Below are positions 5,500 through 23,711 of a DNA stretch of 23,711 nt, in pieces. The notes under the pieces were generated by a model that saw nothing but the letters and a program-made list of their open reading frames with translations, ran no database searches and had not been told where the DNA came from. The position numbers and the translations under genes were made by a program. The stretch is from a virus: the IMG/VR virus record IMGVR_UViG_3300044617_000368, positions 1-23,711 of that record; one strand, 5' to 3'. How positions within the stretch are numbered: the first letter of the stretch is position 1; every line of letters begins with the position of its first letter.

Positions 5500-5565
5500 C
5501 CTTGGGTATACCAAGGTTAAACTAACTGACGCTTAGTCCCTAGTTATACCTTGGTATACCCAAGG
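5500..5565. repeat. 25-bp imperfect inverted repeat, 95 bp before the virion operon
   Basis: Left arm 5500-5524 and right arm 5541-5565 are reverse complements with two mismatches, separated by 16 bases. Each arm is itself a near palindrome (CCTTGG...CCAAGG around GTATAC), so the DNA or RNA can fold in two ways. No U-run follows, so it is not a simple terminator. It could be an operator, a transcript leader structure or a replication element. Confidence 0.55.
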
Positions 5566-21875: not shown

Positions 21876-23095
21876 ATGGCTAATACGTATACCGTTTATG
21901 AGGTGATTGGTAAGAAGGAAGATGTCTCGGACATTAAGTGAATGGTGTCCCATAGACAGTAATGTCTGTGTTAAAAACTGTGTGAATTGCTGGAACATCC
22001 CACGCGGACAATCAGCAGCCAAGCTTGGACAAATGTCCTTGAAGGTTCAACGACTAGGCGAAAGCCGTAGCTACAAGTGTAGCGAAGCGCACAGCCCCAG
22101 TAATGGGTGAAGATATAGTCTGACCTTGCAGGTAACTGTAAGCAGTCCTTTGTGGACGAGCAGGAACTAACGACTCCTGTTGAACATTTTGCATCACCAA
22201 CATCTCTCCGACCACGACGCCCTTCCAGTCCATGATTGGCAAGGAGAGCGTCAACAACGTCCTCTTCCAGTATCAAGAGGACACGCTTGCCTCTGCGGCT
22301 GCTAATGCTCAGTACGATGGCTTTGATGCCACCGAAGTTGCTGCTGTGCCGACTGTTGTCCGTACTGGATTTACCCAGATTCTGGCGAAGGCCATTAAGG
22401 TTGCGACGACCACGGACAAAATCTCGACGTATGGTCGAGCGAAGGAAACTGCCTACCAGCTTAGTAAGCGTTCGGCTGAATTGAAGAGAGACCTAGAGTA
22501 TGTTCTCCTCAACAAGCAGGCTGGTGGTGCTGGTACGCTCAACAACGTCACGCTTACGTCGCTTGGTAATTCTGCGAACGTCGCGTCTGACGCTGCTCGC
22601 ACCATGAAGTCCTTTCAGGCTCAGGTTGACTCCTCGACTTACTCGGCTCTGCTGACGAAGACGGGTGGCACCTCGACTGCCATGTCGGAAGCTAACCTCA
22701 ACACGGTTCTCCAGACGCTGTTCAACAACGGTGCTGACCCGAAGTATCTAATGATTCCTCCGGGTGAAGCTCTTAACATCGCTTCGTATGCTCAGGCGTC
22801 TGGTCGCTATCGCTTTGCCGATAACGCTGATGCTGATGCGGCTCGTCGCGTTGTCAACGTCATTGACCTCTACGTTTCGCCGTTCGGTGAAATTAAGGTC
22901 ATCCTGAATCGCTTTCAGGCTGCTGATGACCATCTGGTCTTCGATCCGTCCATGTGGTCGCTGGCGGTTCTCCGTCCGTGGACCCGTGAGCCGCTCGCTA
23001 AGATTGGTGACTCGGAGCGTCATCTGCTTGTTGGCGAATATGGCCTCAAGCACAAGCATTACGGTGCCTCTGGCATTATCCGTAAGGCTGCGTAA
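21876..23095 (+). CDS. Major capsid protein, split by a group I intron (join 21876-21934, 22192-23095)
   Basis: Exon 1 is 59 bases and exon 2 904 bases, giving 963 bases and a 320-residue protein. The junction reads V-S-D-I-I-T-N-I-S-P-T-T-T-P-F, the normal N-terminal motif of SU10/DUF5309-type capsid proteins (HK97 fold). The C-terminal W-S-L-A-V-L-R-P-W and L-A-K-I-G-D-S-E also fit this family. Without splicing the frame stops at TGA 21939-21941 after 21 codons, and the ATG at 22232 has no ribosome site, so splicing is needed for capsid. AAGGA lies 12 bases before the ATG at 21876. A terminator follows 26 bases after the stop. The gene is not broken: both exons are intact and in phase. Confidence 0.93.
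21935..22191 (+). ncRNA. Group I intron, subgroup IA-like, no ORF (257 nt)
   Basis: A self-splicing ribozyme in the capsid gene. P1: exon GGACAT (21929-21934) with guide GTGTCC (21945-21950), U.G at the splice site. P10: ATG (21942-21944) with exon CAT (22192-22194), extendable by GTG/CAC. P2: an 8-bp stem (21951-21970) with GUAA loop. P3: CTGTGTG (21978-21984) with CGCACAG (22088-22094). P4: TGCTGG (21988-21993) with TCAGCA (22012-22017). P5: TCC/GGA. P6a: GGAC/GTCC (22027-22038). P7: GACTA (22052-22056) with TAGTC (22116-22120). P7.1: GGC-GAAA-GCC (22057-22066). P7.2: GCTAC/GTAGC (22070-22083). P8: CCC/GGG (22096-22107). GTTCAACGACTA and AAGATATAGTC are the typical R and S elements. P7.1/P7.2 suggest IA. 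The intron ends in G. P9-like hairpins fill 22122-22179. Confidence 0.95.
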
Positions 23096-23486: not shown

Positions 23487-23711
23487 ATGCGTAAAGCTAT
23501 TGATATGCTCGGCCAGACATGGGGCCGCTTAACAGTTATCGAAAAGGCAGAAAGCGAAGTTCAGGGTAACTCAACTATAGCAAAATGGAAATGTGTTTGC
23601 GAATGTGGGAATGAGACAACTGTGCGCGGGTCTTCCTTACGAACTGGGCATATCAAATCCTGCGGCTGTTATAGTCGTGAGTTGACGGCACAAAAAGGAA
23701 GAAACAACAGA
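23487..23711 (+). CDS. Probable HNH-type homing endonuclease, N-terminal part (runs off window)
   Basis: Seventy-five codons are visible to the window end with no stop. The start ATG is preceded by AAGGAA four bases upstream. The pattern G-x-x-W-G-R-L-T-V-I (9-18), W-K-C-V-C-E-C-G-N (34-42), L-R-T-G (51-54) and S-C-G-C (58-61) is the cysteine-rich DNA-binding module found at the N-terminus of many phage HNH and related homing endonucleases. Cysteines 36, 38, 40, 59 and 61 could hold zinc. The catalytic part would lie beyond the window, so nuclease activity is inferred. It may instead be a DNA-binding protein without nuclease. It lies 1.3 kb downstream of an ORF-less intron. Confidence 0.7.
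   Translation, partial: MRKAIDMLGQTWGRLTVIEKAESEVQGNSTIAKWKCVCECGNETTVRGSSLRTGHIKSCGCYSRELTAQKGRNNR

Follow-up and report, generated by a model that had tools for sequence, protein, structure and literature searches.

The major capsid gene of the virus is interrupted by a 257-nt group I intron that contains no open reading frame. The window (the 23,711-base virus record analyzed here) carries genes for a terminase, a portal (PF23899, SU10 portal), a scaffold and the major capsid protein at its right end. We consider it highly probable that the intron, by which the capsid gene is split, is self-splicing and was recently gained.

The interrupted gene is an SU10-type major capsid gene, with coding sequence at 21876–21934 and 22192–23095 (plus strand, as for the exon, intron and endonuclease gene coordinates of the window given below). 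Exon 1 starts at 21876 and runs for 59 nt, comprising codons 1–19 and two bases of codon 20, and has an identical or nearly identical counterpart at the beginning of the uninterrupted capsid genes of five related contigs (L002–L006). After the insert at 21935–22191, coding sequence resumes at 22192 and continues as exon 2 through the stop codon. Joining 21934 to 22192 yields a 320-aa protein that matches SU10_MCP (PF17236; 4.8e-77, 259.8 bits). With the insert left in, translation ends after 21 codons at a TGA and the next open reading frame begins at 22232, confirming the original prediction that a gene caller would report a 21-codon fragment plus a truncated capsid protein. The same prediction stated that splicing restores an intact capsid protein at its most conserved N-terminal motif. 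The first part of this claim agrees with the 320-aa product; the second needs correction, since the insertion interrupts codon 20, a short distance ahead of the conserved ISPTxTPF motif, and does not lie within it.

Natural alleles without the insert were observed in all five related contigs. The viral contig L002, which was found with the spliced protein, encodes a capsid protein that is 100% identical to that of the window. The blastn alignment of the two breaks exactly at 21934|22192, each of the 150-bp blocks between 21429 and 23241 is 99–100% identical, and the only other gaps amount to 46 positions, all downstream of the capsid gene. For L003, L004, L005 and L006, the alignment is interrupted at these two bases as well; L003–L005 look like copies of one lineage, which leaves about three independent lineages among the five contigs. 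Since the insert has different bases at its two ends, the junction is unambiguous. Removal of the insert restores the host gene exactly, with both the protein and the junction identical to those of L002.

These alleles also bear on two other explanations. If the 257 nt were a translated insertion or a frameshift element, they would form part of a variant capsid protein. No support was found for this explanation, which is extremely improbable: the insert contains stops in all three frames and its length is not divisible by 3. Homologues translating the 257 nt would, according to the original prediction, speak against an intron; none does so, and the relatives lack the 257 nt. Alternatively, the intron of another phage could have been joined in during metagenome assembly, as might be suspected from the intron at 21934|22192 being carried by one metagenomic contig only, with near-identical contigs lacking it. 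We give such a chimera an equally minimal chance, because the sequence on either side is unbroken and near-identical to L002, because the insert begins and ends precisely at the splice junctions, and because the guide inside it pairs with the exon of the window. Returning to a genuine intron, the absence of the insert from this site in every relative makes a gain in the lineage of the window the simplest reading, and this gain was probably recent. In a blastn search against isolate phages, the region matched other group I introns only in scattered stretches of the core. In comparisons with L003–L005, identity to the window is approximately 99% immediately ahead of the intron site and 77–95% beyond it; identity to L002 is near 100% throughout. 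From the drop in identity to L003–L005, a recombination breakpoint seems to be located close to the insertion site.

The original prediction had suggested a covariance search with the Rfam group I intron model RF00028. This search gave a single such match in the record, spanning 21925–22142 and the whole model, with 83.6 bits (E 3e-20) as compared to a gathering score of 50 bits. Two independent lines of evidence, the score far above the cut-off and the natural alleles without the insert, together establish the ORF-less group I intron predicted at 21935–22191. MicroRNA model matches in the Rfam search were below the cut-off and were dismissed as chance or plain hairpins. A strong intergenic hairpin is present at 5500–5565 of the window, with 25-nt arms that are 92% complementary and a loop of 16 nt; its score against a miRNA model was weak, and it is surely no miRNA.

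Analysis of sequence and fold placed P1 at 21929–21950, where GGACAU at the end of the 5′ exon pairs with GUGUCC of the intron guide, with a U.G pair at the 5′ splice site and the in-frame TGA (21939–21941) in the loop. The catalytic core P3–P9, with a pseudoknotted P7 (GACUA/UAGUC) and the extra stems P7.1 and P7.2, occupies 21973–22142 according to alignment A3, core model R1 and the pair counts. The remaining part (22143–22191) contains the P9.1 and P9.2 hairpins, which are seen in the fold, and the terminal G of the intron, read directly at 22191. Thus, the predicted splice-site features (U.G in P1, P10 and terminal G) are all present, with a P10 (CAU/AUG) that is short (3 bp) yet contiguous. 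Unconstrained folding recovered P1, P2, P3, P4, P5, P7.1, P7.2, P8, P9, P9.1 and P9.2 (z = -3.45). This result, and the covariation of core pairs in related introns, agrees with the claim that every core helix can be drawn. The stems P7.1 and P7.2, which are expected of IA2 introns, are present as GGCgaaaGCC and GCUACaaguGUAGC, both covarying, and mark the intron as IA-type; the IA2 subtype holds over half of the viral group I introns (PMC11835236). The length of 257 nt had been described as near the lower end for a phage group I intron, but is ordinary, with related introns measuring 233–298 nt.

Covariation of the core was tested on 42 pairs in nine introns from SU10-type capsid genes (the window and eight relatives). 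Paired bases were found in 98.4% of the cells and compensatory changes on both sides in 24 of the 42 pairs, in an alignment that was built from sequence and not fitted to structure, but with the structure drawn on the window intron, which gives that structure some advantage. None of 500 shuffles equalled the real core alignment, and pairing fell to 30–44% in controls with slid partners. P7 is present but invariant across the nine introns, and is thus supported by identity only, not by covariation. These results argue against a degenerate, inactive intron that no longer splices, leaving a broken capsid gene in a decaying prophage. An integrase gene on the contig makes a decaying prophage conceivable, and P10 is short. 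However, all core helices are intact and covarying, the score is as high as in the relatives, and the exons are near-identical to an intact allele with no other lesion, so that inactivity is very improbable.

An active intron is probably spliced out in vivo, to judge from these sequence features. The pre-mRNA would fold around the P3–P9 core, bound guanosine would attack after U21934 in P1, and the freed exon would attack after G22191, whereupon the exons would be joined and codon 20 (AU|C, Ile) made whole again. Ribosomes translating the unspliced RNA would stop at the TGA that lies two codons inside the intron, ahead of the core, such that capsid protein would be made from spliced RNA only. 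A dependence of capsid yield on ribozyme activity would follow from this in-frame stop. All 12 of the 12 introns checked have an in-frame stop 3–23 nt past the 5′ splice site (after 7 nt in the window), suggesting that the ribosome halts before reaching the catalytic core. Established work on T4 introns provides the basis for connecting ribosome halting with intron folding, and by analogy the early halt may protect the folding of the introns studied here.

Related introns were identified at other positions in SU10-type capsid genes. Two contigs have introns of 233 and 243 nt (L007:3317–3549 and L010:3317–3559) inside the codon for Tyr108. These resemble the window intron in sequence, in the absence of an ORF and in residing in an SU10-type capsid gene, but differ in their insertion site, which is empty in the window. 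The L061 intron and the second L084 intron are located at the same place as these two, in genes for capsid proteins with 37% (L061) and 43% (L084) identity to that of the window. L084 contains three group I introns (666–943, 1188–1447 and 1801–2073), the removal of which gives a full capsid protein of 294 aa. The first of these was considered as a candidate for an intron at the window's site, but was rejected because its exact splice points place it approximately 19 nt closer to the 3′ end of the aligned gene. L020 has two introns near the 3′ end of the capsid gene; reading of the sequence placed the splice of the first after GACU, and that of the second, after CUU, is less certain, since the splice-site pair would be U-A instead of U.G. 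The MAG contigs L215 and L230 have introns near the 5′ end of the gene, and the group I intron in the latter, bacterial MAG contig (L230:3350–3990) has an HNH-like ORF inside. In all, SU10-type capsid genes are interrupted at six or more sites. A search with the capsid protein gave 297 isolate phage records, in 293 of which most of the protein matched at a single location; no intron-split capsid gene was found among the isolate phages sampled, all 60 of which, taken down the ranking, had the gene in one piece. No intron was detected by R1 in 86 capsid loci picked by best match, a set that favours uninterrupted genes and is no measure of frequency.

Introns of this type were also found in other genes. 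A DNA pattern from the window intron core (P7 strand and P7.1) retrieved 108 viral DNA stretches, and model R1 gave 126 matches when applied to these stretches together with a few further loci. The tree, built from 90 distinct cores, places L047 as the nearest neighbour of the window intron (79.5% identity, support 0.92); the L047 intron likewise lies close to the 5′ end of a gene for a major head protein, but one of another family (phrog_3437). The L035 and L050 introns are in phrog_283 heads and the L111 intron in a phrog_334 head. The closest relatives of the window intron are located in capsid genes of families unrelated to its own. A scan of 83 downstream exons identified the capsid or head families phrog_1328 (9; the head family that includes SU10-type genes), phrog_283 (8), phrog_267 (5) and phrog_334 (3), and 7 tail sheaths as compared to 4 DNA polymerases (phrog_262), 4 terminases (phrog_2) and 3 ribonucleotide reductases (phrog_84). 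The family counts are not mutually exclusive, many of the loci nearly duplicate one another, L215 and L230 were added via the capsid search and the pattern came from the window intron, and the scan therefore shows recurrence in structural genes rather than a measured enrichment. Introns of the same core type were observed ahead of tail sheath reading frames in L046, L092, L018, L034, L019, L095 and L021; seven match phrog_165.

The start of an HNH endonuclease gene, a possible partner in intron mobility, is located about 1.3 kb downstream of the window intron (23487–23711; phrog_374, 7.2e-21) and is cut by the contig end. A Pfam search with the encoded protein gave no match. The intron itself contains no endonuclease gene, there being no long ORF in 21935–22191. 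A complete HNH homologue of 161 aa, 59% identical over the shared part, is present at the same place in L008, the only contig in which a scan for relatives identified one at this position. The HNH gene was not found in the records of L002–L006, L007 and L010. Thus, the intron and the HNH gene are both present in one contig and both missing from five, whereas L008 begins inside exon 2, past the intron site, and lacks a readable site. In collaborative homing, a free-standing endonuclease mobilises a nearby ORF-less intron. Both PMC3984707 and PMC10448857 employ this term. We hypothesize that the window intron, which probably is mobile and entered its site recently in this lineage, was moved in this manner by the putative downstream HNH endonuclease, homing aided by the nearby gene being one possible route. 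More tentatively, a lineage of small IA-type introns may prefer virion structural genes, above all the major capsid gene, and move between unrelated capsid families and between sites within one capsid gene, with the window copy being recent and possibly mobilised in trans by the HNH endonuclease encoded downstream. The deep branches of the tree are weakly supported, and movement between families is therefore a reading, not a demonstration.

Introns in capsid genes have been published before, and the window intron is a well-supported further example. Splicing of an intron in the major capsid gene of mycobacteriophage LittleE was shown by RT-PCR and N-terminal protein sequencing (PMC3706429). 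Like the window intron, it was recognised by comparison with an intron-less relative, and has a U before the intron and a G at its end. It differs in its size of 819 bp, in its LAGLIDADG-like ORF on the opposite strand and in belonging to another phage group, and was described as "most likely a group I". The same study confirmed by RT-PCR the splicing of a 265-bp tail-gene intron without an endonuclease gene in mycobacteriophage BAKA, which is ORF-less and in a virion gene, like that of the window, but in a minor tail gene instead of the capsid gene, and cited a capsid gene intron in Tuc2009 (PMC3706429). In the Jug phages, 37 of 76 group I introns are backed by metatranscriptome reads (PMC12363816). 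These are also small and split essential phage genes, but the phages are huge gut phages and the host genes stressed are terL and nrdD (PMC12363816). We found no report in the open-access papers searched of introns in SU10-type capsid genes, or of introns spread over capsid families.

Capsid genes serve as markers and are assumed to be uninterrupted, whereas automatic annotation yields a fragment and a truncated protein in this case. With the natural pair of alleles, which have or lack the intron but encode an identical protein, one could measure directly what an intron costs in the virion gene that is in greatest demand. Finally, that related introns turn up repeatedly in several capsid families raises the question of why capsid genes are so often targeted.
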